The notes beneath the pieces were generated by a model. It did not search any database and was not told where the DNA came from. It saw only the letters and a program-made list of their open reading frames with translations. 64,000 nucleotides of DNA from contig NW_008705608.1 of NCBI RefSeq assembly GCF_000186865.1, forward strand, positions 6,248 to 70,247, read 5' to 3'. The DNA is from Aureococcus anophagefferens (Eukaryota; Sar; Pelagophyceae; Pelagomonadales; Pelagomonadaceae). Positions 1-58,400 of the stretch are shown one piece after another (the stretch's first letter is position 1; every line of letters starts with the position of its first letter). The translations under genes were made by a program, and so were the position numbers.

Positions 1-2968
1 TGCTACGCGACGTGCCGCTGCGACGCGCTCTAGCGCGCCGGCCCTCCCGGACCACAAGGGCCCGGGGACGGCGGGCGAGACGTGCCACAAGAAGAAGTAC
101 GCGAACATCTGCGCGTGGAGCCTCAAGAAGGAGAAGTGCCGGAACGCCAAGTGCGAGGAGATCGACGACGAGCGCGACTGCACGTCCGAGGGCGCGCGGA
201 AGAGGGGCTGCGCGTGGAACATCGAGGAGAAGGCGTGCGTCAAGGACGCCGGCTCCGAGAGCGGCGCCTTCGGCGACGGCGGCGGCTCCTTCGACTCCGC
301 GTGCGCGGACTCGACGACGTGGCACAAGAAAAACAAAGACAAGCAGAACTGCGCCTGGGTCGGCAAGAAGGCGGCGAAGCGCTGCAAGGCCAAGGTCAAG
401 TCCGAGGACGGCGTCGAGGCCAGCGACGCCTGCCCCGTGGCGTGCGGCACCTGCGATCCGGCGGATGACGAGATCGCCGCGCTCAAGGCCGAGAACGCCG
501 CGCTCACGGCCGAGCTTGCGGACGCGGTCGCGGACAAGGCCGCGGCTCAGGGCAACGTGACCGCGCTCGAGGCCGACCTCGCGGACGCGGTCGCGGACAA
601 GGCCGCGGCTCAGGGCAACGTGACCGCGCTCGAGGCCGAGAACGCCGCGCTCACGGCCGAGCTCGCGGACGCGGTCGTGGACAAGGCCGCGGCTCAGGGC
701 AACGTGACCACGCTCGAGGACGAGCTTGCGGACGCGGTCGCGGACAAGGCCGCGGCTCACGGCAACCTGACCCGCTCGAGGCCGAGAACGCCGCGCTCAC
801 GGCCGAGCTCGCGGACGCGGTCGCGGACAAGGCCGCGGCTCAGGGCAACGTGACCACGCTCGAGGACGAGCTCGCGGACGCGGTCGCGGACAAGGCCGCG
901 GCTCAGGGCAACCTGACCACGCTCGAGGCCGAGAACGCCGCGCTCACGGCCGAGCTCGAGACCAGCGCCGCCGAGCTCGCGGAGGCGGCCGGGGCGAAGG
1001 AGATCTGCGACGCGGCCAATTCTGCGCTCGAGGACGAGATCGCCACGCTCGAGGAAGCGAACGCCATCGGGGCGGGCTGCCCGACGCCAGCGCCGACGCC
1101 CGCGCCGACGCTTCCGCCAACGTCCTCGACGCCCGCGCCGTCGGTATCGCCGTCGGCGTCGCCGACGCCCGCGCCGACGTCCGAGCCGTCGGCGTCGCCA
1201 ACGCCCGCGCCGACGCTTGCGCCGACGCCCGCGCCGACGCTTGCGCCGACGCTCGCGCCGACGCTTGCGCCGACCCTCGCGCCCACGGTCGCGCCCACGG
1301 CGGCACCGACGGCCGCGCCCACCACAGCCGCGCCGACGCCCGCGCCGACGTCCGAGCCGTCGGTGTCGCCGACGCCCGCGCCGACGCTTGCGCCGACGCC
1401 CGCGCCGACGCTTGCGCCGACGCTCGCGCCGACGCTTGCGCCGACCCTCGCGCCCACGCTCGCGCCCACGGCGGCACCGACGCTCGCGCCCACGGCCGCG
1501 CCCACGGCCGCGCCCACGGAGGCGCCGACGCTCGCGCCCACGGCGGCGCCGACGCTCGCGCCCACGGCCGCGCCGACGTTCGCGCCGACTGCCGCGCCCA
1601 CGGCGGCGCCGACGCTCGCGCCCACGGCCGCGCCGACGTTCGCGCCGACCCCTGCCGCGCCCACGGGGTCGCCGACCCCCCCGCCCGCGCCCACGGCCGC
1701 GCCGACGTTCGCGCCCACGGTCACGTTCGCGCCCACGGTCACGTTCGCGCCGACGCAGCATCAGTTCACGGACGGGGATTCCGAAGAGGACGGGAGCCTC
1801 CGGCAGGCGGTGAAGGCCTGGGATGATGGCGAAGACTGGCCCCTGACCAACCACGGCCCCATCGAGTACTGGGACACGTCCAAGGTCACGAACATGGCGA
1901 GTCTTTTCGCCGACCTCTGCCAGACCGACTATTATGAGTACGCCTACTATGTGACCTCGTGCCCGTTTGACGAGGAGATCGGCGACTGGGACACGTCGTC
2001 CGTGACGACCATGGACGCGGCGTTCAAGGGCGCGATACAGTTCAACGGCGACATCCAGTGTCGCTCCGTTGGTGCCTACGTAGGCGCCTACGCGCCTACG
2101 TAGTCTCGTCCGGAACCTACGGACCTATGACCTTATGCGTATTTGTAGGCGACATCGGCGCCTGGGACACGTCGATGGTGTTATTGATGTCCGAGATGTT
2201 TCACAACGCCTTGGACTTCAATAAGTACATCGGCGATTGGGACACCTCGTCGGTCGCGGCGCGGTGATTCGAGTGTGTTTCCGCGCGGCTCGTCCGGTCG
2301 ATCCCCGCTCCGCGGTCTCGACGTTTTGAGAGTGGCGCCCCTGCGCGCGCCGCGGCGGACGAACCAACACGCGCCCAGGTCCGTCACGTCCATGGAATGG
2401 ATGTTTGGCGAAGACGTGGGCTCACATATGGGCTCCCCCAGATTCGACCAAGCCATCGGCGGCTGGGACACCTCGGCCGTGAAGACCCGTGTGGAAATCA
2501 ACCAGTGGTTCGGGAGGTCGAATACGCGCGCATTGAAGTCGGGTTGAATATTTGATTTCCACGCAGGTGAAAACCATGAAAGAAATGTTCAAGGACGCTG
2601 ACAAATTTAACCAGCCCATCGGAAGCTGGGACGTGTCGTCGGTGACGATCAGCGTCCTGTGACGATTTTCGAGAGACTTTGACCGGGAAAACGAAGAGAA
2701 ATCGGTTACCGACATGCTTGGTAGGTGACGAGCTTTAACAGCATGTTCTACTACGCTAAGGATTTCGACCAGATTCTCAACGACTGGGATCCGTCAAGCA
2801 TGACGGACTGGGAGCAGATGACGCGCCCGCCGGCGCAGGTTCGGCCGTTCCGCTCCCGGGGGCGCGACGCCGCCGTCCCGTCGCAGGTACAAGGCCGGTT
2901 TCACGACGTGCTTCGACTGGTGGGAGACCACCATGGGCACCCCATTGGACAGTGAGGTTTGCGGCTAG
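1..2968 (+). CDS. Mosaic surface protein with BspA-like (DUF285) repeats, 5' partial
   Basis: The gene enters from the left edge; the frame is open from base 2. Order of parts: a Lys/Cys-rich extracellular-type module ending in CPVACGTC (about 2-460), a coiled coil built from near-identical repeats ([19 protein letters not shown] type, 460-1000), a Pro/Thr/Ala linker rich in PTLAPT (1080-1750), then BspA-like repeats with WDTSxVTxM signatures to the stop at 2966-2968. The 3' part needs six introns (2048-2148, 2249-2378, 2479-2566, 2642-2724, 2823-2886 plus exon joins); spliced length from base 850 to the stop is 1653 nt, divisible by three. A missing base near 772 in the coiled-coil repeats (GACC-CGCTCGAG where sister repeats read GACCACGCTCGAG) breaks the frame, so this is a frameshift, polymorphism or assembly error. 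DUF285 families in protists are usually secreted or surface proteins; the role is unknown. Five introns are placed; the last donor (2823) is the least certain. Confidence 0.7.
470..960 (+). repeat. Coiled-coil coding repeats
   Basis: Head-to-tail units of about 57 bp (GCGGACGCGGTCGCGGACAA onward) alternate with a 27-bp block (GAGAACGCCGCGCTCACGGC onward). They code heptads such as [10 protein letters not shown]. Copies are nearly identical in DNA, which implies recent expansion or gene conversion and makes slippage or assembly error likely; one copy lacks a base near 772. Confidence 0.85.
1080..1750 (+). repeat. Pro/Thr/Ala low-complexity coding repeat
   Basis: Degenerate 12-15 bp units (GCGCCGACGCTC and GCGCCCACGGCC types) encode PTLAPT/PTAAPT runs. 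A mucin-like stalk between the coiled coil and the BspA-like repeats is the likely role. The long Arg-rich open frames on both strands here are shadows of this repeat. Confidence 0.85.
2048..2148 (+). mobile_element. Introner-like insert, unassigned family
   Basis: A 93-bp insert lies between two perfect 8-bp copies of GCGACATC (2048-2055 and 2149-2156). Removing 2048-2148 with the GC of the first copy as donor and TTTGTAG as acceptor gives an uninterrupted BspA-like repeat ([11 protein letters not shown]). The insert (CAGTGTCGCTCCG...CGTATTTGTAG, rich in CTACGTAGGCGCCTACG) matches neither family A nor B. Confidence 0.7.
2249..2378 (-). mobile_element. Introner family B, degenerate (intron)
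   Basis: A 130-bp intron with the family B signature GGTGATTC followed by GTGTGTTTCCGCGCGG. Flanks are GTCGGTCG and GTCCGTCA (6 of 8). Donor GT is in the first flank and the acceptor is GCGCCCAG. Joining gives DTSSVTSM in frame. It is antisense to its gene and shortened from the usual 200 bp. Confidence 0.6.
2479..2566 (+). mobile_element. Introner family A, internally deleted (intron)
   Basis: The ends GTGTGGAAATCAACCAGTGG and GATTTCCACGCAG are family A but only about 80 bp remain, so the middle is lost. The target duplication is GTGAAGACC / GTGAAAACC. Splicing at the GT of the first copy restores AVKTM in the BspA-like repeat. This is a miniature derivative that still works as an intron by frame. 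Confidence 0.85.
2642..2724 (+). mobile_element. Introner-like intron, unassigned family
   Basis: Flanks GTGACGATC and GTGACGAGC share a 7-bp duplication. Donor GT at 2642 and acceptor TTGGTAG at 2724 join to [10 protein letters not shown] in frame. The insert is relatively AT-rich and resembles neither family A nor B. Confidence 0.6.
2823..2886 (+). other. Short intron carrying a 39-bp sequence shared with 7805-7843
   Basis: GC donor at 2823 and acceptor TCGCAG at 2886 join ATGAC to GTACAAG and keep the frame to the stop at 2968. Bases 2842-2880 are identical to the reverse complement of 7805-7843, and both copies are followed by CGCAGGTAC. An alternative donor at 2840 (CAG/GTTCGG) gives a shorter tail ending at 2955, so the exact border is uncertain. 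Confidence 0.5.
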
Positions 2969-3287: not shown

Positions 3288-6200
3288 TTACGTGAGCGCG
3301 TTGCCCGTGTAGGTGCCCGCCGGGGGCCGGTAGCAGACGGGGAGCGACTTGACCTGGACCGCGTTGAACGCGTACTTGTCCTGGCCCGTGTTGAGCAGCA
3401 GGTTCCTGCGGCGGACGCCGTGGGCCCGGAGGAGCTTGCAGAGCATGCGCTCGTCGAAGACGCGGAGGTCGCGGCTCAGCGCGCGCGTCTGCTCCAGGGT
3501 CACGGCCATGGCCGTGCGGTCCTTGCCCGACTTGCAGCAGATCGCGTGGGAGCCCGCGAGGTCGCGGAGCAGGTCGCTGCTGTGGAGGAGCACGTGCACG
3601 TTCTTGCCCGGCGTGCCGTCGGCGACGGCCGGCGCGACGGCGCCGCGGAGCGCCGCGGCCCAGGCCGCGAGCTCCGCGTCGGCCGCGGCCGCGGCGGCCG
3701 CGTCGCCGAGCGCGAGCTCGCGCGATATCGCGCCCGCGCGCGCGACGTGCGCCTCGAGCGCCGCGAGGCCCGCGGCGTTGGCGCAGGCCTGGGCCGCGCG
3801 GTCGCCGGCCATCTGCAGGTTGCACACCGTCTGCCACTCGTTGATGCCTGTGTGGAATTCAACCACTGGTTTGGGTGGTCCTGACCAAACTTCAGAATTC
3901 TCTAGCTCGGTCAAATCGAAGTCGATTCGGCTGATTTTTGGACGAATCGATTGCTCTCGTCGAGTTCTCGAAGCACAGCCGAAGAGATTGCGTCGAAACT
4001 GTCGCATACGCTCACATTGAAGTCGGGTTGAAGATTTGAATTCCACACAGGTTGATGCCCTGGCTGAAGAGCACCGCGTCGAGGCCGCAGCTCCACGCGG
4101 CCGCGCCCGGCGGGCCCGCGGCGCGGCAGGCCGCGAGGAGCGGGCCGTCGACGCGCCGCTCGACGAGCAGCGCGCCGCCGCCGCCCGGCCGCCGCGACAC
4201 GGCCCAGTCGCCCGCGGCGTTGTCCGCTTCCGCGCCGCGCGGTCGGTCGACGAAGGCGAACGTGAGCGAGTCCATCCACTCCGTCGCCGCCACGAGGTCC
4301 TCGAGCATGCCGAGCTCGTCGCCGTGCGTGCTTAGGAGGCACTCGACGCCCAGCAGCAGCGCCCCGCCGCCGCCCGCGCCCGCGAGCGCGCGGCGGAGCG
4401 CGCGCGCGTGCCGCGGCGACCCCTCGGCCGCGCAGCGCAGCACGGCCTCGACGTGGGCCGCGGCGACGGCCAGGGCCTGGCCGCAGACGACGTCGACGCG
4501 CTCCGCGAGCTTCGCGCGCCGCCGGAAGTGGCGCGCCGCGGACGGCCGGTCGTCGCCCGCGCGGCCCGGCGGCCGGCCGCCGCCGGCGTCCGCGGCCTCG
4601 CGCGACGGCCGCCGGTCGGCCTCGATGTGGCTCCCCGCGCGGCGGCTCCGGTCGCGCCGCTCCTCGCACCGCGTCGCCGCGGCGTCGCACGCGGCGAGCG
4701 TCGCCGCGTCCAGACCGCCGTGCGCCGACAGGGCGAGGAGCCGCGCGAGCCGCGACGCGCGGAGCGCGCGCCGCCGCGTCGACGAGGCGGCCGCGTCGCC
4801 GCCGTCGACGTAGGCCTCGCTCCGGTCCACCAGTTTCTGGAGGCCGCCGTCGCGGAAGCCCAGGTGCTTCGCGTGCGCCGCGGTGGCCCCGAACGTCACC
4901 TGGAAAGGGCGAACGTCGCTTCGACGTGGGCGCGCCGCGCGCGCGCGTTCCGGGACAAGCACGCGACCGTTCCGAGCGATGATCGCTCGTCGAAAAATCA
5001 GCGGAAACGAGATCGGAGCGTTCGGAATGTCGCGCCCGTGTCCCGCGCCGGACGTCACCGTCGAGTGCCAGAGCTCGGGCCCGTCGCCCGTGCGCGGCGG
5101 CGCTAGAGCCGGTGATCCGGGCACGCTGTGGCGCCGGTCGAGGCGGCTCCAGGTAACGGGGCTCTGGGGGTCGCCGCCGTCGAGCCTGCGTGCGAATCAA
5201 CCGCCGGTTTGCGACGTCCCGGCCGAACGTCTCGGTCGCATCGACTTCGATTCGGCTAATTTTTGGACGAAGCGATGGCTCTCGAAGCACGGCCGAAGCG
5301 CTCGCGTCGAAACTGCTCACGTTGAAGTCGGGTTGAAGATTCGACGTCCGCGCGGCGTCGTGCGGGTGGTCCGGCTGGCGCCGCGCGCGGAGCTGGTGCC
5401 AGTTGAGGTTCGTCGGCAGGAACTGGAGCGCCGCGTCCTTCTTGAGGGTCGACCGCTTGAGGCGGTGGCCGCCCCGGGCCAGCGGGTTCTCGACGGCCGC
5501 GACGCCGCCGGGCGACTCCGGGAACGGCGCGGCGACGCGCAGGTCGAGCGCGCGCGCGCGGCCGCTCGCGTAGACGTCGTCGGCGTGCGCCGCCTGGGCC
5601 TCGAGCTCGTCGCGCATGGCCGCGAGCTGGTCCGCGATGGCCTCGATCTTCGTGGCCGCGAAGTCGAGCTCGCGGCTCCGCATGGACGCCTGCGCGGCAC
5701 TCGAATCTTCGACCCGACGTCAACGCGAGCGTCATCGAACGGTGTGGACGAGACTCTTCAAAAAGAGCAATCGAGTCGTCCAAAAATCACTCGAATCGAC
5801 TTCGAGCTCGAGAATATCTAAAGTTTGGCCCCGACGTCCGAGCTCGCCGGTCGATTTCCCCGCGGCCGCCCGCGGTGTCGTCCTCGTCGCGGTCGAGGTG
5901 GGAGAAGCGCGCCGCCGCCGCGTCGTCGTCGCTCCGGTGGCGCCGCTCGGCGGCGTCGCCCGCGGCGAGGCGCGCCTTGCGCCGCAGCGTCGCCACGGCG
6001 CTCCGCTTCTCGTCGAGCGCGGCGCCGACGGCCGCCGCGGCCGCGTCGCGGAGCGCGCGGCGCTCCGCCGCCAGCAGCCCCAGCAGCGCCGCCGGCAGGT
6101 CGCCGGCGGCCGCGGGCACGGCGATGGTCTCCGCGGCGACGACGTGGCCGTAGCGGACGCCCGCGCCGTCGCGCTCCGCCGACCGCAGGTGGTAGTGGCG

Positions 6201-7654
6201 CCGCGCGTAGGGCGCGGCGCCGCCGCCGCCCGCGAAGAGGCCCGCGCCGTCGACGCCGCAGAGCAGCAGCCGCCCGGACGTCGCCGCGGGCGACGCGCGG
6301 CGCGCGGGCCGCCGCGGCTCCGCGGGCCGGTACGCGACGGACCTGTGTGGAAATCAAATCTTCAAACCGACTTCAATGTACGCATATTTGAATGTTTCGA
6401 CACAAGCTCTTCGGCTGTACTTCGAGAACTTGACGAGAGAAATCGACGCGTCCAAAAATCAGCCGAATCGACGTCGATTTGACCGAGCTAGAGAATTTCA
6501 AAGTTTGGTCAGGACGTCCCAAACCAGTGGTTGATTTCCACACCGCGACGGACCCGCGCGAGGGGGCCGCGAGCGCGTTCGCGGTGCCGCTCGACGAGCT
6601 CGCCGTCTCCGACACGTCCTCGTCGTCGTCGGGCTGGGCCTGCTCCTCGCGGTGCAGGGGCACGTCGAGCACGGCGCCGCGGGACCGGCCCGCGAGCGCC
6701 GACGCCTCCGCGCCGTCGAGCCGCGTCCGAAAGAGCCGCCGGTGCGACGCGAGCGGCGCCGCGTGGCCGTGCTTCATGTAGACCGCGAAGCCGCAGGGCC
6801 CCTCCAGCACCGACGCCGGGAGCAGCACGGAGAAGTGGCGGACGACGTCGAGGCCGCCGCGCGGGTCGCTCGACTCGGACGCGAACGCGCCCGACGCGCC
6901 CGCCTTGACGACCTCCGTCCGCGCGACCTCGTCCCAGGCCTCGTCGTCGCAGCGGAAGGCGACGACGAAGAGGCCGTCCTCGTCCATGCGGTCCACGCGC
7001 GCGCCCTTGAGGTGGAGCGTCGCCTGGAGGCCCGTCGCGGCGCCCGCGCGGAGCTCGGACGTGCCGCCGCGCCGCACGGCGGCCTCGATCTTCTCCGGCG
7101 TGATGGCGCAGGGCAGGGGCGGCGCGGGGCCGTCGTCGTCGTCGTCGTCGTCGTCGTCGAGGTCGACGGCCGCGAGGCCCTCGGGCGCCGGCGGCGCGGA
7201 AGGCTCGGACGGCCGCGCGTCCTCGCGCGTCGCGTGCGCGATCGCGGACCGCAGGGCGTCGACCCAGCGGTCGCGGTCCGCGGGGGACCGCGCCTGGAGC
7301 CGCATGGTCTGCTGCTTCAGCGCGCAGCGGACCTGGCGAGGGACGGTCTCGGGCCTCTTTCCCGCGAAGAAGAAAAAGGGACGCGGCGCTTCGGACGCTA
7401 AAGGGCGCGTAGCCCGGCCGCGCGGGCTCGTCGTGGGGCGACGCGCCGGCGACGCTCGCGACGCTCGCGCCGCAGACGAGGACGACCTCGCCGAGGAGCT
7501 TCAGCGTCTTCGGGCCGTCGTAGTAGGCCAGGCGGACCGCGTCGCGCCGGAGCACGAAGAAGCGCTCCTTCCAGTTCTTGCGCCAGCTGCCCTGCTTGAG
7601 CAGCACGCCGTCGAGGCGCACGTCGAGCGTCGTGAAGGTCTTGGACGTCGACAC
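3288..7654 (-). CDS. INPP4-type phosphoinositide 4-phosphatase with PH and C2 domains
   Basis: Likely removes the 4-phosphate of PtdIns(3,4)P2 at membranes. The C-terminal part has the family's SQGINE segment and the catalytic CKSGKDRT loop (C-x5-R), about 75 residues before the end. The N-terminal 115 residues are a PH domain (GSWRKNWKERFFVL, ending in DRWVDALR). A C2-like block follows (TLHLKGARVDR...RHFSVLLPASVLEG), with an acidic run of nine Asp between them. Seven exons: introns at 7333-7396, 6343-6553, 5690-5873, 5186-5363, 4900-5058 and 3848-4058. Spliced length from 7654 is 3360 nt, giving 1119 residues in one frame. Five of the six introns are introners. The start is open: position 7654 is GTG and the frame continues upstream, so a first exon near 7901 (ATG, MNVSVNGEWT) is possible. 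Animal INPP4 lacks the extra PH domain. Confidence 0.8.
3848..4058 (+). mobile_element. Introner family A (intron, 211 bp)
   Basis: Full-length copy, antisense to the INPP4-like gene. Target duplication on the coding strand is GCATCAAC. Splicing uses the GC of the upstream copy and AG of the inverted-repeat end, restoring QGINEWQ, the conserved INPP4 sequence. Confidence 0.92.
4900..5058 (-). mobile_element. Introner family B, degenerate (intron)
   Basis: Contains the family core in eroded form (CGTCGAAAAATCAGCGGAAA). Coding-strand flanks are GTGACGTC and GTGACGTT. GT donor and TTTCCAG acceptor restore HSTVTFGAT. The 159-bp length and lost ends mark an old copy. Confidence 0.8.
5186..5363 (+). 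mobile_element. Introner family A, degenerate (intron)
   Basis: Carries CGATTCGGCTAATTTTTGGA and the GTTGAAGTCGGGTTGAAGAT end. Coding-strand flanks are GCACGACG and GCTCGACG (7 of 8). GC donor, CACGCAG acceptor. Antisense to the gene; 178 bp, so about 33 bp shorter than intact copies. Confidence 0.8.
5690..5873 (-). mobile_element. Introner family A, degenerate (intron)
   Basis: Has CGTCCAAAAATCACTCGAAT and eroded ends (CCGCGGGGAAATCG / CGAGTGCCGCGCAG). GC donor; joining gives DDTASMR in frame. The flanks GCGGGCGG and GCGTCCAT share only GCG, so the duplication is no longer readable. The border rests on frame and splice signals. Confidence 0.7.
6343..6553 (-). mobile_element. Introner family A (intron, 211 bp)
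   Basis: Full-length copy in the same sense as the INPP4-like gene. Coding-strand duplication GTCCGTCG. GT donor, CCACACAG acceptor, restoring RGSVAYRP. Confidence 0.9.
7333..7396 (-). other. Ordinary 64-bp intron in the PH domain
   Basis: Coding-strand donor AGC/GTCCGAAG and acceptor CTCGCCAG/GTCCGC. Joining gives PFSVRCALKQQTMRLQA, the expected last strands of a PH domain. It contains a TTTTTCTTCTTC pyrimidine tract and no introner sequence. Confidence 0.75.
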
Positions 7655-7804
7655 CGCGTCGTTGGAGACGGACTGGCGGCGCCCGACGAACCAGCCCGCG
7701 ATGGTCCTACGATGGGGACGGTTCCCGCCGGAAACCGTGGAAATCGCGGCGCCGGGCGCCCGTGCGAAGACTGCGTCGTGCGGTAGACGCGGTGGTACCT
7801 GCGC

Positions 7805-7843
7805 CGGGACGGCGGCGTCGCGCCCCCGGGAGCGGAACGGCCG
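7805..7843 (-). repeat. 39-bp sequence shared with the intron at 2823-2886
   Basis: The reverse complement is identical to 2842-2880 (CGGCCGTTCCGCTCCCGGGG onward) and is likewise followed by CGCAGGTAC. It lies just downstream of an ATG at 7901 that could open exon 1 of the INPP4-like gene, so it is probably also intronic. Confidence 0.6.
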
Positions 7844-10436: not shown

Positions 10437-11991
10437 CGTCAAGTTTTTACCCTGCCCACGCGGTCGACCTTGCCCTTTGGGAGCTGAGGCGCTCGGCTCG
10501 GAGAGCGGCCGCCGCGACAGCGCGCGCGCGGCGCCCCCGGGGAGTGGGGCCGCGCGCTCCCGCATGTGCCTCGGGACCGTCCGTGGCCAGGCCACTGCGA
10601 AGACGCCGCGCGCGAATCGGTCCGGGCGTCGTCGAAAACGCAACGGCCTCGTCGGAGCGTTCTCTCGAGACGGCTGGCGCGTGTTGGACGTGTTCCGGAC
10701 CTCGCTGGCCTGGTTTCTCCGGAGGAAGTGCGGAGAGGGTTGCTATGAAGAACATGTCTCGCGAAACCAGGCCAGATGTACCGTCGGACCACCCTACGGC
10801 CTCGGTTCCTCGATTCTCATCGATTGGCGGCGGTCTTTCCGAGCCAGTGTGCGGCGCCGCGACGCCCCTGGACGTCCAGAGCGGTTCCGATGCCCTCTCA
10901 CGACCGATCACCGGGGCTCCGCTGGCCCGCGCGTCAGGTGAACGCGGCACTCGACAGCTACAGCTTGGGCGCCTCCTGCCAGCGCCTCGAAAACGACACC
11001 AACACGGTCTACAGCGACGACGCGCCCACGAACGCGGACTGGCGCTGTCGTTGCGTCGAGACATCTTGTCTCGACTCCAGAAGACGCTCGGCCATCGAAA
11101 CGGTGCTCTGCGCGCCTGTTTTCCTGCCGCTGGTGCCTCGCCAGTACACCCTAGCCGTACTAAACCAGTACAAACGCGTCGTATACGGCCGTATATACTC
11201 GCTTCGGCGCCCCGCTCGACCGCCCGGGGCCCGCCCGGACTCACCGGGCCAGCGTGGACGTGCGTGGCACCCGCCGCCGTCGGGTGGACGCGCGTACGTG
11301 GCGCTCGCGCACGCCGGAAATCTCCAAAAACCGACATTTTCGGCCATAACTTGTGCCAATCGATGACCTAGCATGATCGGCTGCGGTTCCGGAGCCCCAG
11401 ATAAACGTCCATCACGATGAGACAAGCAGGGGGTCCGCGGTCGAGGTGCCCAAAATCGTCGATTTTCCAGTGGCCAGTGCACCGATCAAAACTCAGATTC
11501 TGATAGCCTGGATTTAAAAGTCAACATTTTTGTTGAACTTCAGCACTTTTGTTGAAGTTAAATCTTGCGATTTCGCGACCCGAACCAGCGACCGCGCGCA
11601 AAAAGCCATCGCAAACGTGCAATTAACGCGCGAATATCATCAAACTTGCTTTGATACGACCATAACCCAATTTTGGCCGTGATTTCAGCCCGCGGACCGC
11701 CGCGACACCGCGCCCGCGCGCGCGGTCGACGTACAGCCTCTATGGACGACTAATGACTCTGGCTCCGCCGGCCGGAATTCGATGATTGATCTTTATTAAT
11801 TAATTTCCTACGGGTGCACCTAGATGTACGTTGATCGGGGCACTGCCAGTGGCGTGGGCAGGGTAAAGTTTTGGGAGCTCCTGCAGGCCTGTGTGCCAGG
11901 CTGTGGCAACACCGCCTCGCGCCGCGCCCGACGCGCGCGCACCCGACCGCCCCGCGCCCGCGCCGCGCAACCGCCGCGCCACCACTAGAAG
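10437..11991. other. Long gene-poor interval
   Basis: At 1.55 kb this is by far the longest stretch without a clear gene. 11500-11860 is notably AT-richer (two copies of TTTTGTTGAA at 11530-11560, ATTAATTAATT near 11795), and a palindrome ATACGGCCGTAT lies at 11183-11194. A frame at 10938-11100 (VNAALDSYSLGASCQRLEND) has protein-like composition and could be a gene remnant or an exon; I cannot extend it. No tRNA or rRNA was seen. Confidence 0.5.
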
Positions 11992-12932: not shown

Positions 12933-12935
12933 GCC

Positions 12936-13673
12936 ATGTCGTCCTGGCTGAGCTGCGTGGGCACGGAGTGCCTCAACTGCAACCTGACCGACGACCCCGA
13001 CGAGATGGACCCCTTCGACTCCCTGCGGCTCTACGCGCGCGTCCACACCGGGGCCGCAAAAAGGATGCGACGTGCCCAACTTCAAAGGCTCCGATCTCGG
13101 CCGGTTTCCGCTGATTTTCGGACGAGCGGTCATCTCCCGGAGCGCTGTCGAAGCGTGGATGCGTGTCTCCCGAACGCGCGCGCGCGGAACAAATCAGTCG
13201 CGGCCCAGGTCCACCTCGGCGCGCCGGACCTCGACGACGGCGACGACGTCCCGACGGGCAACGTGCGGAACCTGACGGACGACGAGTTCAAGAGCGTGTT
13301 CAAGCACACCATCGAGCGCCGGGGCTGGCCCGTGCTCAAGTACGGCAAGGGCAAGGCGCTGAAGCGCTGCCTCAAGGTCGAGGGCGCGGGCGACGACGCG
13401 CACCTGTCGTGGGGGTCCAAGAAGGAGGGCGCGGCGACGAAGCAGGTCAAGGTCGCCGAGATCCACGACGTCGTCAACGCGGCCTTCGACGACGCGCCGC
13501 CGAACATGGACCCGGCCTGCATGCTCTGCTTCAACATCTCCAACCGCGCTGGCCTCAAGATCATCGCCCACTCGAAGACGGACGCGACGGTCCTCATCCA
13601 CGGCTTCAAGCTCCTCACGGAGCCCAAGAACGCCGACATCGACCAGATCCGCGCCAAGGCCATCATGGTGTGA
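12936..13673 (+). CDS. PH-like domain protein, hypothetical
   Basis: Two exons (intron 13041-13208) give 189 residues; the spliced length is 570 nt. The start has a Cys-rich stretch (MSSWLSCVGTECLNCN). The rest resembles a PH-like fold of the type found in protein scaffolds: VFKHTIERRGWPVLKYGKGK, LSWGSKKEG, and a final helix in KNADIDQIRAKAIMV. Function unknown. The ATG sits 3 nt after the stop of the preceding small ORF, in frame with it, in a good GCC-ATG context. Confidence 0.65.
   Translation: MSSWLSCVGTECLNCNLTDDPDEMDPFDSLRLYARVHTGAAKRMRRAQLQRLRSRPVSADFRTSGHLPERCRSVDACLPNARARNKSVAAQVHLGAPDLDDGDDVPTGNVRNLTDDEFKSVFKHTIERRGWPVLKYGKGKALKRCLKVEGAGDDAHLSWGSKKEGAATKQVKVAEIHDVVNAAFDDAPPNMDPACMLCFNISNRAGLKIIAHSKTDATVLIHGFKLLTEPKNADIDQIRAKAIMV
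13041..13208 (+). mobile_element. Introner family B (intron, 168 bp)
   Basis: Sense copy with GGGGCCGCAAAAAGGATGCG at one end and GCGGCCCAG at the other. Flanks GTCCACAC and GTCCACCT share GTCCAC. GT donor; joining restores YARVHLGAPDL. The core reads TTTTCGGACGAGCGG, so this is a moderately old copy. Confidence 0.85.
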
Positions 13674-40715: not shown

Positions 40716-43700
40716 CTAGTTCGGCGCCGGCGCCTTGGGGAGCTTCTTCGGCGAGTCCGGGTCCGACGGGTGGAGCTCGGGCTCCGCGGTCCGCGGCGCC
40801 AAGTAGGGCACCTTGAGGTGCGCGAGCAGCACGTCCAGCTTCGCGTTCGTCTCGCGCTGGATGTGCTCGACGCGCGCGACGCGCTGGAGCACGGTGCCGC
40901 CCGAGACCTCGTCGAGCTCCGCCTGGCGCGCCTGCTGGTCGCCGATGAGGTCGATGGTCATCATCTTCTGCCACGACGTCGTGATCGCGTTCACGGACCG
41001 CTCGAGCTCGAGCCCGGACCACTTGTTCCGCTTGAAGCGGTTCTCGACGTAGTCCGCGCGCACGGCGTCGTAGTTGCAGCAGTAGGTGCCGTCGTCGCAG
41101 ACGCGGCACACGGTCGCCTCGGCCTCGGCGCGCTCGAGGAAGCAGCCGTCCTCCTTGATGCGCACGCGCGCGCCCGGCGAGTGGCGGCTCGAGATCTGCT
41201 CGCGCTTGACCACGAGGTCGATGTTCTGGAAGGACACCTCGAGGAAGCCGTCGTCGCGGACGTCGATGACGCGCGCGCGCTGCGGCGGCAGGCCGACGTC
41301 GAAGCGCGCGTAGACGAGGTCGCCCTTGGCCGTCGGCGGCCCCGACGCCGCGACCTTGGACTTGGACGGGCGCTTCGCCCGCTGGGCCGTCGACGGGCGG
41401 CTCTCCGGCGGCGCGTCGCCGTCGAGCTCCTCGGGCGTCGCGGTGACCGTGCCCGGCGCGCAGATGTGGCGCGTCCGCGGGAGGCGCACCTCGTAGGTCG
41501 ACGGCGTCAGCCGGCGGTCGCTGCCCATGCTCGACGTGTAGAAGACGTCGACGATGTCCGCGGGCCGCGGGCCGCCCCCGAGATCCACGTAGACCTTCTG
41601 CCCCGTCGTCCACTCGGACTCGTCCGTCGTCGGCGGCAGCGGCGTCACGATGGACGTCTCCCGGACGCCGTCGGCGCGCCAGCGCAAAGGCTTGAAGTTC
41701 TTGTAGAGGTTGAAGAGGTTCTTGTCGCGCTCCTTCTCGGACGCGCGCTTGATGCGGTTGTCGAGGTGCACGGACTTGCGCCGCTCGTGCGCGTCGACGG
41801 CGCGGTAGTGGCGCTTCAGGGCCAGCTTCTGGCAGAGGTAGGCCGCGTTGTAGTAGCGGATGCGCGCCTTGCGCTCCTGGACGGCGAAGGCGCCCGTGCG
41901 GTAGACGCCGAGCTTGAAGAGCTGCCAGCCTGTGTGCAAATCAACCACTGGTTTGGGTGGTCCTGACCAAACTTCAGAATTCTCTAGCTCGGTCAAATCG
42001 AAGTCGATTCGGCTGATCTTTGGACGAATCGATTGCTCTCGTCGAGTTCTCGAAGCACAGCCGAAAAGGTTACGTCAAAACTGTCGCATACGCTCACATT
42101 GAAGTCGAGGTGAAGATTTGAATTCCACACAGCTGCCAGCCCGCGAGCTTCCGCGTCGCCGCGAGCAGCTTCGGGCACGCCTCGGGCGTCATGATCTTCT
42201 CCAACGTTTCTGCGGAAATAGCATTCACAAAGACGTGGCCGATGGCCGCGACGTCGAAGGCCGACGGCATCTGCGCGCCGACGAGCGAGTGGATGATCTC
42301 GACGCCGATGACGTCGTGGTTCCGCGCGCTGAGGAACTCGCCCGTGGACAGCCCCTCGCTCAGGCCGTCCTCGGTCTCGCCGCCGACCTTGTCCACCTCC
42401 TCCTCGTCGCCAAAACCCAACTTCGCGCGCATGCGGAACGCGGAGCCCTCGAACATGAGGAAGAGCGAGTCGTTCATCGCGCCGCCGCGGACGATGAACT
42501 CCTTCGCCGCGAAGAGCCGCGGGATCAGCGCCAGCGAGATCTCCGTGACGAGCACGTTCGACTCGCGGTTCGCGGCCTCGAAGCGCCGCAGCCAGGGCGA
42601 GTCGAGCGGCAGCCGGAGCCGGTCGTGCGCGACGCCCGCCTCGACGTCGGGGCCGCCGTCCCAGCGCTCGCCGTAGAAGACGGTGTACTTGAGGCACTTG
42701 TCGAGGCTCAGCAGGCGCGCCTGGAGCTCGCCGTGGGCGCTGAACTCGACCTCGTCGGGCGCGACGACGACGAGCGTGCCCACGGCCATGCCCGACGTCG
42801 TCCGCACGACCGTGTTCAGGAACGGCAGCTTCGACACCCAGTCGCCGAGCTCCTCCTTGGCGACGGCGCGCTGGAGCGCCGGCGATAACGATTGAAGCAT
42901 CTCCCGGTGGTACATCTTGCGGAAGAGGCCCTCGGAGTTGATGTAGTACTCCCTCAAATGCTTCTGGAGGCCCTTGTTGATGTTCCGCTCGAGCATGTAC
43001 TGGTTCAGGTTGTCCATGGACGTGCGGTAGTCGTTGAGCGCCGGGTCGAAGTTCGTCAGCACGTTGGCGATCTCGCCGATTAAAAAGGCCGTCATGACCA
43101 TGCCGGAGAGCATGATGAGGAAGCCGAGGAACGACTCGCCGAACGTGACGCTCTCGCTCTCGCCGCCCATGGCCTTGGCAGCCCATTCTAAAGCCGCGAC
43201 GTACTCGAACCAGAGCCCCTTCTTCCGGTAGCGCACGGTCGCGAGCCAGCAGTCGCCCTCGCTGTCCGTGTTGTACCAGTCCGGCGGGTCCGCGCCGGGA
43301 ATATCGGGGGACGACGCGTAGTACTTGACGCAGTCGGGCGTGTCGCCGATGAGGCGGATCATGCAGGCCCAGAGGTGGGTGATGACCACGATCAACAGCG
43401 TGTACTTGATCATGGTCATGACCTTGAAGGAGATGTTCACCGTCGACGCGAGCCGCGCGACGAGGCGTCCAAATCTTAAAACTCGCAGCAGCTTCGGCAG
43501 CCGCAGGAGCTTCACCATCTTCAAAGCCCCCGACGCGTTGGAGTCGCAAGAAAAAATCCGCATGCGCGCTGGCTGGAACTTGGCGGCGATCAACGTCTCG
43601 AAGGGCAGGCAGGACACCAAATCCAGGAAGAACCACCCGCGGAAGTAGCGCTTCGCGACGCGGCCGTAGGACACGATCCACTTCGCCCGCTCGTGGTCGA

Positions 43701-44668: not shown

Positions 44669-45585
44669 ATGGAAGGCGAAGCGCTCGTGCCCGGCGCTCG
44701 GCCGCCGGAGGCGGCGCCGGCGAGGAGGCGCCTCGCCCCCGTGGTCGCGGGCCTCGCGACGGCCTGCGTCGTCGGCGCCGCGCTCGCCTCGCATCCGCGG
44801 GTGAGGACGACCGCTCTAAACGTGGTGACCCACTGCCCGAAGTCGACGTGCTACAGCTGCACGAACGGCAACCCGGGCGTGCCCGAGAAGTACGCGAACG
44901 GAGAGTGGGGCACAGGGCAGCAAAAGGGTGATTCAACGTCGCTTCAACGTGAGTGTTCCGCGCGCGCGCGTTTCAAAAACAGCACCCACGCTTCGAGAGC
45001 GCTCCGAGAGATGATCGCTCGTCCAAAAATCAGCCGAAACGAGCGGAAAACGACCGAGATAGGAGCCTTTGAAGTTGGGAATTTCGCACCCTTTTGCTGC
45101 CCAGGTGGGGCAACATCACGGGCGGATGGTACGTCTTCGCCCAGAACGCGGAGCAGGACCAGCTCGACTGCGACCGCTTCTCCTTCCTCGACGACGAAAA
45201 AATTCTCCACGAGGAGCAATTATATTACGGAACGCCGACGGAGACGACGTACTGGTTCAACGTGACGTCGAAGCGCTACGACGACACCACGGGCATGTGG
45301 CTCAACGAGCACTCGAGCGACAGAGCGTGGAGCTTGGTCTGGCTCGTCGGGACGTACAAGGGCAGCCGCTACTTTGGGTGGTACCACTGCGGCGACGCCG
45401 CGGGCTTCACGAAGCGCGGCGAGGCCTTCGTCATGAAGGACGACCTCCACTGGGACGACGCGCTGCTCCGCAAAGTGAAGAAGAAGATGAAGAAGGCGGG
45501 CCTGCTGGACGCGTCGGCGTCGACGTTCTCCGAGGCGCGGCAGACGCGGAAGAGCTGCGACTACACGTTCCCTTCCTTAGCATAA
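44669..45585 (+). CDS. Violaxanthin-de-epoxidase-like lipocalin, membrane-anchored
   Basis: Two exons (intron 44905-45104), 717 nt, 238 residues. An N-terminal TM (LAPVVAGLATACVVGAALA) is followed by a short Cys-rich segment (HCPKSTCYSCTNGNPG). Then comes a lipocalin barrel of the VDE/VDL type: GGWYVFAQNAEQDQLDCDRF corresponds to the GxWY...DCQ start, and WLVGTYKGSRYFGWYHCG to the later FVYYRG strand. Helix LLRKVKKKMKKAGLL ends the barrel. De-epoxidation of xanthophylls is only a suggestion: the Cys-rich domain of true VDE is shorter here and the leader is a plain TM anchor. The intron falls in the lipocalin GxW turn. Confidence 0.55.
44905..45104 (-). mobile_element. Introner family B (intron, 200 bp)
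   Basis: Perfect duplication GTGGGGCA. Ends CAGGGCAGCAAAAGGGTG and CACCCTTTTGCTGCCCAG are full inverted repeats. GT donor; antisense; restores NGEWGNITGGW. Confidence 0.93.
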
Positions 45586-51200: not shown

Positions 51201-54200
51201 CGACGACGTCGCGCCAGGTCCGGTTGTCCATCGCGCGGCTGGAGCCGTTGGATTCAGAGACGGGCCGGCCCTACAAGCTCCCGACGGGGCCCAAGGCGCG
51301 CCTCCAGTGCCACCTCACGGCCGCGACGATGCCGCCGAGCGAGCTGTCCGTGCAGAACGCGACGGGCATCGCGGCGATGGAGCGGCTCATCCTGAGCCCC
51401 CAGGTCGGCGACCGCATCGCCCTCGTGCGCCTCGCGGCCGTGGACCTGCGGATTTTCGCCATGCAGCTCCAGCATTTCCTCGACCGGCTCATGCAGAGCG
51501 CGCGGCCGCTCGACGGCGGCGAGATCGTCGACTTCTTCGTGTGCCTGCTGCCGCGCGTCGTCGACGTCCACTCCGTGGCGGGCCTCGTGCAGCGGAACCT
51601 GAGCGAGGCGCAGACGGCCCACCTCTGGGCGAAGCTCGGCCCGGCCATGCCCGTCTTCGCCGGGGCCGTCGCCGCGCGCCACGACTTCGACCTCACGCAG
51701 CCGCTGCACCGCGCGGCGCTCTGCAAGCTCGTCCAGATGGACCAGATCTTCGTCGCGCAGCAGCGGGGCCACTTCGGCGACGACGGCGGCGGCCTGACCT
51801 TTTCCGTGTCGGCGAGCGCGGGCGGCGACCTGTCGCAGCTCTATCGGGGCGGCACCTCCCAGAACTCGGACTACCGCGGCTTCCGCAACGCGACGTTGAA
51901 CGGCGACCCCATCTCCGCCGCGGAGATCGAGGCGCTCACGGCGACCTTCGGCGACGCGGGCGCCGACGCGCCGACGCTCAAGGGCAAGGCCCAGCTCAAG
52001 TGCGACTACGCGGGCTTCCTCCGCGCGCCGATGGACGCCGCGCCCGTCAGGGCAGGACAAAGGTGATTCAACGTCGCTTCAACGTGAGTGTTCCGCGCGC
52101 GCGCGTTCCGGGAAAAGCATCCACGCTTCGAGACCGTTCCGAGAGATGATCGCTCGTCCAAAAATCAGCCGAAACGAGTGGAAAATGGCCGAGAGAGGAG
52201 CCTTTGAAGTTGGGAATTTCGCACTCTTGTCCTGCCCAGGCGCCCGTGAGCGGCCTCAAGCTCAACATGCTCCTCTTCAAGAGCGGGTTGCGCTACTCGG
52301 CGACCTACGTCGAGAAGCACCCGGCCGTCGGGCGCCTCGTGCCCGACGTGCTCTTCGCCAAAACCGTCGCGGAGCAGCTGCAAAGCGACGCGAAGCAGCT
52401 CGTCACGGCCGAGTCGCCGGCGGCGGAGCGCATCCGCCGCGCGTCCTACGGCACGGCCGGCGGTGGCGCCGGCCGGCCCAAGGACCGGGACCTCGCCGGC
52501 TCCTTCAGGGCGCCGGAGGCCGCGGACGCGGACGGCTTCAAGGCCTGGCTCGACAAGCGGCGCGTGCCCGCGAAGACGTGGCCGCGGGGCGAGCTCGACG
52601 CGGCGCTGCGCCAGCTCAAGGCCCGCGAGGCGCACTGGGCCTGCGACCTCGTGCCCGCGCTGACGGGCCGCAAGAAAAAGAGGCCGCACGTCAAACGGAC
52701 GATCCACGTCGTCCGCGCGCGCATCTCCCACTTCCTCGAGGAGAAGGTGCTCATCTGGCGGCCGCCCTTCAAGGGGTCGGGCTTCGCCTCCCTCGTGCGG
52801 AAGAACGCGGCTTTGGACTCCATGTCGCGGGCGAACTCGACGCCGGCGTCGAGTTCGCCGCGGGCGCGCCACGACCTGTGTGCAAATCAACCAGTGAGCT
52901 GGGACGTCGGGGCCAAACTTGAGAATTCTCTAGCTCGGTCAATTCGACGTCGATTCGGCTGATTTTTGGACGGATCGATTGCTCTCGGCGTGTTCTCGAA
53001 GCACAGCCGAAGAACTTGTGCCGAACTGTTCGATTACGCGCACATTGAAGTCGGGTTGAAAATTTGATTTCCACACAGGCCACGACGACTTCGCCGCGGG
53101 CTTCGAGAAGGGCCGCGCGTCGCTGCCGCTGGGCCTGGAGACGCGGGCGCGCGACGACGAGGAGGCGGCGCCGCCGAACCCGAAATTCGAGATCCGGACG
53201 GCCGAGGACCCGCTGCTGAACCGCGCGGCCCAACGGGTCGCGGGGTCGCTGCGGAAGCGCGTCTCCGCGGCGCTCCGCAAGGGCGAGCTGCCGCTCGTGG
53301 AGTCGTTCGTCACCAGCGACATCCGCGTCGACGAGGAGGGGTCCGTGCTGCTCTCGCCGGCAAATACGGCCGCGCGGTCGGTGTTGCGTGCGCTCAAGCA
53401 GCGGCTCCGGGGCTCCGCGGCCGTCGCCGCCTTGACGGAGAGCGATTTGAGGTGCGTGCTGCGCACGCGGCGCAAGACGGCCTTCGCCTACACGAAGCCG
53501 CGGACGCTCCCCCACGCGGAGACGCAGTGCTACGTGTATTATTTCGAGGTCTACGTCCACGGCCTGCCCGACGCGCTGCCGCCGATGAACCTCGAGCGGG
53601 GCCAGTGCGTCTGGCTGCCCGCGGACGAGGCCGAGGACGTGCCCACGGAGCCCGAGTCCGTGGGCAAGATGGTGCTGAATTTCCGCACGAAGACGTCGGC
53701 GCTGTTCTTCACGTGCCGGCAGGCGCGCCACATCGCCGACTGCTTTTTGGAGTTGGTGTCGCCCGCGAACGAGGCCGACGCGCCGAATCTGGCGCCCGCG
53801 GCGGAGCAGGCGCGGTCCCTGGCGCCGGCGACCAAGGCCAAAGACGCCAGACTAAGACGCGGCTCCGCGGCGCCGTCCATGGCGGACCTGATGGACGCGA
53901 AGGTCACGCCCACGAAAGCCAAGATGAAGCAGAAGCGGAAGGACTTCGACGAGGCCCAGGACGCGGAGAACGCGTCGACGGCGGGGTCGCGCAACGGCGC
54001 GGACCGGGAGCGGCGGAAGAACGTCTTCGGCGACAAGAAGAAGCGGCGGGGCGACCTGAAATTAGGCGGCGAGGCCGCGGGCGCCGCCGTCGCGCTGGCC
54101 ATCGCCAAGGGCCACGGCGACGACCGGCAGCGGCGCGGCGCCGTCGTCGCCGACGCCGTGGAGATCCTGCCGAACCACCACTACCTCATGGACCTCTTCG

Positions 54201-55495: not shown

Positions 55496-58400
55496 ATGAC
55501 GGCCACGAAAGTCAAGGGCCGCAAACCGACGAAACCGCCCGCGGGCCCGCCGGAGCTGCCGCCGCACCTCTTCGAGCTAAGAGACGAGGAGCTGCTCGCG
55601 GCCCTCGAGGTCGAGAGCGACGGCGTCGTCGTGCGCTGCATCGCGGAGCGCCGGAACGACGGCCCCGCGCAGTTCCGCTGCGCGGGCGCGAGCGAGACCT
55701 TCGAGAGCGGCGCGAAGGTGCTGCTCGCGCGCGTCGTCGCCGGCGGCGGCGACCATCAGACGCTCCTGGCGGCGCTGCGCCTCGCGCGCGGCCACACGGG
55801 CGGCGCGGACGGCGCGCTCCTGGAGAGCGCCGTGCGCGGCGTCCTGCGCGCGAGCGGCCGCGGCGACGTGCTGCAGCTCGCCGCGCGGTGCCTCGCGGGC
55901 GACGGCGCCTGGCGCGACGCGTCGCTGCCGCCGCGCGCGCGCGTCGCCGCGGCCGCGGCGGCCGCGGCGTCGGCGCCGGAGGTGGAGGATGTGGCGCGCG
56001 TGCTCGTGGCCGCCGCGCGGTCGCCGGACGAGGACGCGCGGCGCGAGGCGCAGCGGGGCATGAAAGTACTCGCGGCCGCGGCCGCGAAGCCGCCCCTTCG
56101 CGCCGGCGCCGCCGCGGCGCTGCGCTCCTGCGCCGAGGCGTCGCTCTGGCAGCTCCGCCAGCCCGCCGCGCGGTTGTGCGTTCCGCCGGCGTCCTCGTTC
56201 CCTTTTTTCGCGCGACGCGTTGCCCCTCACCCGTAGCGGCGCCAGGCTCTTCGCGGCAGCCAAGGCCGCCTTCGAGGCCGCCGTCGAGGCGTCGCGCGCG
56301 CTCGGCGTCGACCTCGCCTGGGTCCAGGCCGCGGCGGCGGCGCCCGGCGGCTGCTTCCGCGGCCGCTGCGCGGCGCTCGAGGCCGCCGCGGGCCTCGGCC
56401 TCGTCTCGGAGCGCGCGGATTTGTGGCGCGCCGTCGTGCTCCCGGGCGTCGCCGGCGACGCCGGCGCGGCGCGCGCGGCGTCGTCCCTCGCCGTCGCGCT
56501 CGCGAGGAGCCGCGGCGGCCTCGCGGCGAGCGGCGGCGCGGCCTTCCTCGCTGATTGCTTGGCTTCCGGCGACGCGGCGACGCGCGACGGCGCGGCGGAG
56601 CGCCTCGGCCCGGAGCTGCTGCGGAGCGAGCCCGGCGCCGTCGCCGCCCTCGGACACGCGCTCGGCGACAATGTGGGCGCGCGGGTCCTCGCCTGCCGCG
56701 CGGCGGCCGTCGCGTACAAGACCTTCGACGGACGCGCGCTGCTCGACGACGCCGCGCTGGCCGCGGCGCTCGACGCCGCGGACGACGACGTGCGCGTCGG
56801 CGCGCTCGGCGTCTTCGAGCACCGCGCGGTCTGCGGCGAGCGCTTCGACGCGCTCGCGGACCGCCTCGCGGCGTCGTTCCGCGACGCCGCGCTGCGGCCC
56901 GCGGTCGTCGCCGCGGCCCGGCGCCTCGCGCGGCGCCGCGACGCGGCGCCCAAGTGGCGCCCCGCCGCCGCGGCCCTGGCGGACCGGGCCGTGGGCGCCC
57001 TCGGCGACCGCGCCGCCGAGCACGCGGCCGTCGCGGGCGGAACCCCCGCGTCCTTTCGCGCGAATCGCCTTCCGATGCGTCCGCCGCAGGTCCTCGAGGA
57101 GCTCGAGAGCTCGGCGCCGCTCGAGCACGCGCACGCGGCGGCGCTGGCGCACGCGCTCCTGACGTCGACGTGGGACCGCACGCGCGACGCGGCCTTTTCG
57201 CTGCTGAAGCGCGCGCCGCGGCTGCCGGATGCGGTCGCGGCCGCGGCCGAGGAGGCCGGGGGCCCCACGGGCGACTTGCGCGCCGACGACGCGGCGGCCA
57301 AGTGCGTCGCCCTCGCCGCCCTGCGCCAGGGCCGCGCGGGGCTCTTCCGGCGGCTCATCCACGACGACGCGCAGCCCGCGGCTCTCGCGCTCCTCAGGGC
57401 AGCAAAAGGGTGCGAAATTCCCAACTTCAAAGGCTCATATCTCGGCCGGTTTCCACTCGTTTTGGCTGATTTTTGGACGAGCGATCATCTCTCGGAACGG
57501 TCTCGAAGCGTGGGCGCTTTTTCCGGAACGCGCGCGCGCGGAACACTCACGTTGAAGCGACGTTGAATCACCCTTTTGCTGCCCAGGCGCTCCTCGTCGG
57601 CGACGGCTTCGGAGGCGCGGACGAGATCGACGCCCTGGGCGCCATCGCGACGAAACGCCTCGCGGCCTTCGGGGCCGCCCTCCCGCGCGAGGACGCCGAG
57701 GGCGCCGACGACGACGACGAGGACGCGGTGGACCGGGGCGCGTGGCACGGGACGCGCGCGGCGTGTGCCCTCGCGGCCGCCGTCGCGCGGCGCGCGGAGA
57801 CCCCCGCGGGCGTCCTGGAGCGCCTCGGCGACGCTCTGCTGGACCGCGTCCTGCTCCACACGCGCCACAGCGGCGCCATCGCCGCGGCCCAGGCCGCGCT
57901 GACGTCCGCGGCGACGGCGTTGCTCGTCGGAAGCAACGCCGACGCGGACGCGGACGCGGACGCGGACGCCGCGTTCGAGCCGAGGTGCACGGCCAACGTG
58001 GACACCGCGGCGCCGGAGTTCCTCGCCGGGGCCGCGCGGGCGCAGGCGGAGCGCCTGGCAAGCGGCTTCGCGGCGGACGGCGCGCCGGGCGGCGCGTATT
58101 CCGAGCGCGCGCCGCCCCCCGGGATGCGCTTCGCGGGCTACGCCAAGGGGGCGACGGGCATCGTCTGGGCGCCCGCCGACGGCGGGGGTCGACGCCGCGG
58201 CGGCGCCGCCGTCGTCGCGCGCTGGCTCGACGCCGCGCTCGCCGCCGTCGCGGCGCCGTCGGACACGCGCTGCGTGCTGCGCCGCTCGTCGGGCCTCGGC
58301 GGCGTCTTCGTCGCGCTCCTGGCCGCGGAGAAGGACTGCGACCGCGACGCGTCCGCGTTGGCGGCGCGCGCGGTCGCCGAGCTCCTGGAGCGATCGGCGT

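Follow-up and report, generated by a model that had tools for sequence, protein, structure and literature searches.

How did twenty related segments come to lie within ten genes of a single 64-kb stretch of Aureococcus anophagefferens DNA (the window, meaning the whole stretch that was analysed), and are they removed as introns? A sequence-only reading of the window had proposed that they are introners of two families, A and B, typically 211 and 200 bp long, in which the upstream copy of an 8-bp duplication supplies the 5′ splice site and the end of the element supplies AG. Protein matches assign the window to A. anophagefferens. All twenty elements are present, ten in each family, and each intron consists of the upstream copy of the duplication plus the element. 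The proposed lengths are exact in 5 of the 10 introns of either family, the remainder measuring 88-210 bp (A) and 130-191 bp (B). The two copies of the target-site duplication (TSD) are identical in 12 of 20 cases and differ at one position in 5, at two in 2 and at four in 1, so that 17 of 20 have at most one mismatch. Every intron starts with GT (9/20) or GC (11/20), hereafter GY, and every one ends in AG, as had been predicted, although these counts are partly by construction for the decayed copies, because C[AT]G ends were favoured in the border search and, for the introns at 4900, 5186 and 5690, borders were placed by eye. That GC donors make up just over half is a point absent from the earlier reading.

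The elements belong to abundant repeats. The core 12-mer (at most one mismatch) has 18 occurrences in the window where 0.08 would be expected by chance, the terminal inverted repeat (TIR) 15-mer of family A has 774 exact matches genome-wide against 0 for the reversed pattern, and the 16-base core (at most one mismatch) yields 3544 against 1. As multicopy elements with TIRs, 8-bp TSDs, insertion in both orientations, and one splice site carried with the other co-opted from the duplication, leaving a restored target, they resemble DNA-transposon introners of the Aureococcus and Micromonas type. Neither an Rfam scan at gathering thresholds nor a tRNA scan of the window gave a match. Among the matches listed, an apparent megabase-long run of plus-strand cores on one contig was dismissed as an artefact, since exact minus-strand cores lie inside it.

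If the segments are introns, then their removal should leave coherent genes. An element-blind codon-usage model shows coding stopping at the elements and restarting on the same strand, with a frame shift equal to intron length modulo 3 in 14 introns taken singly; the introns at 2249, 2479, 13041 and 44905 were left out of this test. The minus-strand family B intron at 4900..5058 (159 bp, GT-AG, decayed) fails the test alone because the short exon between it and the family A intron at 5186..5363 (178 bp, GC-AG, decayed) was not called; jointly, the pair removes 337 nt, which is 1 modulo 3 and agrees with the frame shift. The same minus-strand gene (3291-7500) carries three further family A introns, at 3848..4058 (211 bp, GC-AG), 5690..5873 (184 bp, GC-AG, decayed, with four TSD mismatches and the weakest case of the set) and 6343..6553 (211 bp, GT-AG). 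Proteins of Chrysophaeum taylorii are conserved across two of its five junctions and too diverged at the other three: VLFSQ|GINEWQTV at 3848..4058 is identical there, and HST|VTFGATAAHAK at 4900..5058 corresponds to HST|LTFGVTAAHAK. Among the closed frames claimed earlier, four were recovered from ATG to stop by introner removal (2925, 3075, 3351 and 6105 nt, with 3075 nt found twice), whereas the frame of 4215 nt requires an additional 73-bp intron, which can be placed in four ways, and reaches 2709 nt from introner removal alone.

Known protein domains also continue across the junctions. In the first gene (1971-2659, incomplete), a DUF285 repeat is restored across both a decayed family B intron (2249..2378, plus strand, 130 bp, GT-AG, TSD GTCGGTCG/GTCCGTCA) and a family A intron with an internal deletion (2479..2566, plus, 88 bp, GT-AG). 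An Ion_trans match spans the family B intron at 21101..21300 (plus, 200 bp, GC-AG), and the 3-dehydroquinate synthase (AroB) gene aligns colinearly with PDB 3zok through the site of its family B intron (25010..25200, plus, 191 bp, GC-AG). Judged from sequence, the conserved enzymes are thus whole once the introner segment is removed. The claim that removal restores the target codon for codon is therefore borne out by the frames and by proteins conserved across some of the junctions. The remaining introns are those of family A at 20048..20258 (plus, 211 bp, GT-AG), 41930..42140 (minus, 211 bp, GC-AG) and 52868..53078 (plus, 211 bp, GC-AG) and of family B at 13041..13208 (plus, 168 bp, GT-AG, decayed), 44905..45104 (plus, 200 bp, GT-AG), 52040..52239 (plus, 200 bp, GC-AG) and 57387..57586 (plus, 200 bp, GC-AG), together with a group of four for which a metagenome relative, P0124, offers a comparison. 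Three of these insertions seem to be absent from P0124, namely 33375..33574 (family B, plus, 200 bp, GC-AG), 33740..33944 (family A, plus, 205 bp, GC-AG) and 34446..34655 (family A, plus, 210 bp, GT-AG), and the fourth, at 35001..35188 (family B, plus, 188 bp, GT-AG), which P0124 reads through as protein, seems to be present. The AroB junction peptide is retained, with no more than 2 mismatches, in P0001, P0003, P0005 and P0010; they were not counted as empty sites, as their short contigs may be genomic or transcripts.

What determines where such an element can persist? We sampled 95 introners, with a bias to intact copies and to two contigs; the sample is free of the GY circularity that affects decayed window copies, and the coding strand could be called from codon usage in 90. 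All 80 testable insertions of the sample are in frame. GY occupied the sense end in 90 of 90 callable coding insertions, versus 23 of 90 at the antisense end of the same duplications, where the background is 20.3%. One copy in 95 (L067, duplication CGCGCACC) is without GY at either end, and its coding score is too weak to call. This contrast between the two ends points to a loss of unspliceable insertions rather than to target choice. A transposase that prefers GY targets might nonetheless be held responsible, given that target preferences are common among transposons and that a rule kept by all 90 insertions is extreme. Yet the opposite end stays near background, and GY tracks the sense of the gene rather than the orientation of the core, family A lying along the gene in 21 cases and against it in 24. 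In addition, a 371-bp MITE of the same genome provides a built-in negative control: it also makes 8-bp duplications, has AG at neither end in either orientation, avoids coding DNA at all 8 sites that could be read and has GY in just 2 of 8 duplications. One copy lies in non-coding DNA of the window (11475-11845; 11467..11853 with its two duplications CCAGTGGC, no strand assigned) and is not an introner. We thus regard target preference as a very unlikely cause of the GY rule.

An RNA-based spread of the kind put forward for introners of fungi, in which reverse splicing is combined with reverse transcription, would fit copies that are nearly confined to coding DNA (90/95) and exactly removed, and yet it would leave the 8-bp duplications, the TIRs and the occurrence of family A in both orientations unaccounted for, which makes it scarcely credible. 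Equally hard to sustain is the notion that the segments disrupt genes already in decay, or arose during assembly. Public gene models do often break at introner sites. Against this, coding statistics resume in frame, the enzymes are intact after removal, and public models of other strains splice GT-donor cases exactly in 6 of 10 (14-residue test). The same test found 0 of 14 GC-donor junctions right; an 8-residue version misleads, the first residues flanking the junction on either side being those that the duplication itself encodes. Viral spread was set aside as well: matches in viral_contigs (8 stretches for the 16-base core, 43 for the family A end 15-mer) were taken as chance, all 51 sharing only 16-23 bases with one A and one B element.

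With high confidence, we therefore assign the twenty elements to two families of non-autonomous DNA transposons (MITEs) behaving as introners, and hold that unspliceable insertions have been removed. We envision that a transposase places the element in coding sequence and generates an 8-bp duplication, as the duplications and inverted ends suggest. The terminal CAG of the element would then serve as 3′ splice site, and the opening dinucleotide of the upstream duplication, read in gene sense, as 5′ splice site, for which either GT or GC would suffice; removing one duplication copy with the element would restore the target codon for codon. Having AG at both ends, family A would be functional in both orientations. 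Family B, with AG at one end, would work only with that end downstream, which is where it lies in every surviving copy examined, its two orientations relative to the gene numbering 33 and 11. Coding insertions without GY in the sense direction would be purged by selection, as the strand asymmetry implies. Consistently, position 2 of the end arm is altered in 9 of 46 donor-side but 0 of 46 acceptor-side arms of family A, and is T in 44 of 44 acceptor-side arms of family B. Family B copies of either orientation partly cluster by sequence, so that the position-2 types resemble subfamilies that have switched more than once. Frame, conserved proteins, donor asymmetry, acceptor-arm conservation and apparently empty sites together uphold the introner reading with its half-donated splice sites.

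The copies had been described as near-identical; genome copies average 85% pairwise identity in family A (45 copies, best 97.5%) and 92% in family B (44 copies, best 99.0%), so the description suits instead the 371-bp MITE, whose copies are almost identical, and the suggested recent or ongoing activity is supported only in part; moreover, the two AroB models annotated for A. anophagefferens already run into the introner of that gene. Profile searches with PF05699 and PF10551 found no transposase partner for the introners. PF05699 marks four places in the genome, including a 344-residue frame that barely passes the Pfam cut-off (21.8 vs 21.4 bits), within two stretches 98.6% identical across 2.7 kb, and a 1217-residue frame whose DUF4371 and hAT dimerisation domain matches are both below cut-offs; in the parts of the surrounding 10-kb stretches that were read, no introner-type ends pair around the four places. 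PF18758 has no match here or in its control genomes, which makes that search uninformative; PF10551 has none in the genome, and the 4 places marked by PF13359 were set aside, 3-bp duplications being expected of that group. Two A ends spaced 745 bp apart proved not to delimit a long element, since the interval holds an entire A element and its duplication, and an unpaired MITE end belongs to a short deletion form. The 8-bp TSD is shared with MITEs of the hAT superfamily, and the B ends (CAGGG) and MITE ends (CAGTG) presumably resemble hAT ends; no hAT transposase flanked by such ends was found in the stretches read, and the likeness serves as a lead only.

This kind of intron-making system is already known, as the sequence-only reading had said. 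Huff, Zilberman and Roy reportedly described A. anophagefferens introners in Nature in 2016 as non-autonomous elements with TIRs and duplications, carrying one splice site, co-opting the other and inserting in both orientations. Excerpts of later papers relay these findings second-hand (PMC10228655, PMC9481584, PMC7789003), with a characteristic length near 210 bp (PMC9481584). Species, TIRs and TSDs, co-option and length agree with ours, the families being likened by description only; where the excerpt of PMC7789003 speaks of canonical splicing motifs, GC donors are here the majority. PMC9860276 (Fig. 2F) describes introner family 4 of Aureococcus sp. TARA_AOS_82_MAG_00129, which shares the genus and the 8-bp TSD but brings both splice sites with it and lengthens the mRNA by 12 bp, whereas the window introners restore the target exactly. 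The green alga Micromonas pusilla has TSD/TIR introner families (PMC9860276), as far as known unrelated to those of the window, and a high GC-AG fraction too, given as 22.2% in PMC3033335. Added here are the donor asymmetry, the MITE control, the share of GC donors, the gene-model errors and the P0124 sites.

How might the splicing machinery recognise such donors? Beyond GY they show little: A at +4 in 14%, G at +5 in 31%, G at -1 in 29% and a weak G at +3 (54%), with GC in 55 of 90. As an addition to the introner reading, a terminal RNA stem, rather than the bases flanking the donor, might mark the 5′ splice site. The folds predicted for an A intron and a B intron pair their end repeats, juxtaposing donor and acceptor, but lie only 2.1 and 1.6 standard deviations below shuffles; moreover, transposition requires inverted ends regardless, decayed introners with poor stems appear spliced too, and the acceptor A is never paired in family B, which leaves the stem rather improbable. 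Changes that co-occur above expectation at several positions of the end arms were discarded as evidence for RNA structure, since transposase recognition or subfamilies explain them equally.

One of the few proven intron-making systems is thus confirmed in raw long-contig sequence and put into numbers. Comparing two ends of one duplication tells selection for splicing apart from target choice, and the sequences show how strict that selection is, only spliceable insertions being kept. For users of public A. anophagefferens gene models there is a warning, as these tend to err at GC-donor introners, more than half of our sample. More tentatively, introners may amount to a saturation experiment that nature has run on 5′ splice sites, in which any well-placed GY survives with hardly any further consensus, a terminal stem rather than a U1 consensus aids donor choice, and GC-AG abundance is a by-product of transposons in GC-rich coding DNA. 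Per opportunity, GC is retained at about 0.4 times the rate of GT (0.26-0.61). The GC donors of introners could be a cause of the GC-AG excess of this species, termed an enigma in 2011, which thereby gains a simple candidate explanation.

The window, in which GC content ranges from 63 to 83% (2-kb bins), lies in an assembly of 49.05 Mb and 86 contigs. The sequence-only reading had counted 20 introners there, and all 20 were recovered, ten each of family A and family B, by a scan for 8-bp direct repeats around inverted ends complemented by similarity and border refinement. The scan itself returned 25 candidates, against 0-4 on five local shuffles; ten of them belong to introner family A or B, an eleventh is a different element (11467-11853), and the remainder look like GC-rich coding repeats. 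In the sense of the host gene, each intron comprises the element preceded by the upstream copy of the target duplication. The 3' dinucleotide is AG in all 20, and the 5' dinucleotide is GT in nine and GC in 11. Because the target is duplicated, intron borders can be slid without changing the mRNA, and what fixes them is the AG found invariably at the end of the element. For decayed copies the choice of borders was partly guided by splice signals (C[AT]G ends were weighted, and three borders were placed by eye), so that the unbiased test is the larger genome sample considered below.

Trained on the window without information on the elements, a codon-usage model assigns coding to 84% of the window minus introners; its coding signal stops at elements and resumes on the same strand. 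Sixteen of the 20 introns were assessable: in 14 taken one by one, and in the pair 4900+5186 taken together, the frame shifts by the intron length modulo 3. The proposal that spliced frames close held up for ATG-to-stop frames of 2925, 3075, 3075, 3351 and 6105 nt, those of the other five genes being shorter; a 4215-nt frame, claimed likewise, is reached only with one further intron of 73 bp and not by introner removal alone. Conserved proteins run across some of the junctions. In the 3-dehydroquinate synthase (AroB) gene at 24343-25874 the junction falls inside KTAVNSRGAKNMVGAFYQP, within a gapless alignment with PDB 3zok. In the gene at 3291-7500, comparison with Chrysophaeum taylorii (P0127) is informative at two of five junctions, the other three being too diverged: the 3848-4058 junction lies in VLFSQ|GINEWQTV, identical in both species, and the 4900-5058 junction reads HST|VTFGATAAHAK here and HST|LTFGVTAAHAK in C. 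taylorii. Introner removal turns the first gene into a DUF285 repeat spanning two junctions, and an Ion_trans match in a channel gene spans 21101-21300.

Is the donor site chosen by the transposase, or by selection after insertion? We collected 95 introners from the window and fetched loci, requiring ends that resemble those of A or B and no more than one mismatch in the duplication, and making no demand on GY (GT or GC) or on coding; the sample is non-random, coming mostly from two contigs, with loci picked by exact end or core, and thus favours intact copies. Codon usage in up to 150 bp per flank allowed the coding strand of 90 to be called with confidence. In 80 the two flanks, each judged by itself, were coding and agreed on the strand, and every one of these (80/80) is in frame after removal. 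The sense end of all 90 duplications is GY (GC 55, GT 35), whereas the antisense end is GC in 12 and GT in 11, consistent with a GY background of 20.3% among flanking sense dinucleotides (p 0.24), which the sense end does not fit. Among the five uncalled insertions, four have GC or GT at the plus-strand start, and one (locus L067, duplication CGCGCACC) lacks GY at both ends. On the simplest reading, GY is not a choice of the transposase, and coding-DNA insertions lacking it were lost; were insertion indifferent to sequence, roughly four in five coding insertions would have been lost. Per opportunity, GC donors were retained 0.40 times as often as GT donors (0.26-0.61; codon phase ignored). Beyond GY the donor consensus is slight (+3 G 54%, +4 A 14%, +5 G 31%, +6 G 44%, -1 G 29%), and intron phases 0, 1 and 2 number 30, 28 and 32. 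Selection against poorly spliced insertions is already argued for in PMC9860276.

A natural control is provided by a 371-bp MITE at 11475-11845, with ends CAGTGCMCCGATCAA, an 8-bp duplication CCAGTGGC and no AG at either end. It has at least 41 matches in the genome, at least nine of them, the window copy included, listed at 100%, and eight other copies each differ from the window copy at one of 371 bases. Perfect and mutually different 8-bp duplications flank the window copy and seven of these eight, the eighth being unreadable. None of the eight readable MITE sites scores as coding, although one flank at locus L114 is weakly positive, below threshold; among introners 90 of 95 do (Fisher p 5e-9). 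Two of the eight MITE duplications begin with GY. The absence of the MITE from coding DNA may instead reflect its own preference for intergenic DNA, given that the comparison comprises eight sites only. The MITE is the recently active element of the window. The near-identity of copies that had been ascribed to the introners belongs to it and not to A or B, within which mean pairwise identity is 85% and 92%, and 0 of 990 and 4 of 946 pairs, respectively, reach 98%.

The acceptor leaves its own trace in the end arms, where position 2 is the source of the A in the acceptor-side AG. Among 46 family A copies, position 2 departs from T in nine donor-side and no acceptor-side arms (p 0.0025), whereas changes at the other 14 arm positions number 41 donor-side and 44 acceptor-side. 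In 44 family B copies it is always T on the acceptor side and never on the donor side (A, G or C), whether the core runs with the gene (33) or against it (11). These patterns imply that A carries an acceptor at both ends and B at one; in family B both arms switched more than once. The families differ in their ends but have in common a core, about 53 bp long and centred around GATTTTTGGACG (3922-3974 in A), at about 80% identity. Two lone copies of the core motif (62246-62287 and 62597-62608), in a non-coding stretch with no recognised ends or duplication, may be decayed introners, or the motif may have another use there.

With up to one mismatch, the core has at least 3544 genome matches and is found in 14 of the 20 window introners, which points to roughly 5000 introners genome-wide and to a density in the window about three times the average, the genome figures being on the low side. 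Outside the window, a frame of 1217 aa that weakly matches DUF4371 and the hAT dimerisation domain (locus L010, 4456-8106, minus strand) is a candidate transposase or domesticated gene; no introner-type ends were found around it in the 10-kb stretch inspected. The window also holds a 63-bp inverted repeat pair (2828-2890 and 7795-7857, 94% complementary) that belongs to no introner and, in a GC-rich stretch at about 1055-1660, a tandem array of 12-bp period.

Among public gene models, the best matches of the genes at 32484-36298 and 3291-7500 are from A. anophagefferens, the species to which the window is assigned. Compared by eye, A. anophagefferens AroB model P0002 equals the window protein except in stretches that read as mis-spliced, and P0004 has a few more differences. 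Both pass from GAKN into VLQFRFNMSA, the translated introner start, so the AroB introner is present in both assemblies. A metagenome relative, P0124 (30.9-kb contig, sources jgi and ena), is 92% identical to the protein of gene 32484-36298 and unbroken across the junctions at 33375, 33740 and 34446 (0, 1 and 0 mismatches in 14), and it enters a B introner at 35001 and then continues out of frame. This protein-level pattern would fit a gene called unspliced from genomic DNA in which three sites are empty and one is filled. Using 14-residue peptides across six GC-donor and four GT-donor junctions of three genes, with at most two mismatches allowed, public A. anophagefferens models keep the junction in 0 of 14 cases for GC donors and 6 of 10 for GT donors (Fisher p 0.0016), the cases being non-independent in that each junction is common to several strains. 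Two AroB cases fail narrowly by count, with three mismatches, yet both models visibly enter the introner.

According to an EST-based study (PMC3033335), GC-AG introns make up 39.6% in A. anophagefferens, 22.2% in Micromonas pusilla and 2.7% in Micromonas RCC299; the U1 5' end is identical to consensus, and the origin of GC-AG introns is termed an enigma. Such a GC-AG excess would follow if GC were co-opted from GC-rich coding DNA. In the passages of introner papers covered we found no link between the two, though a 2016 Nature paper may already make it.
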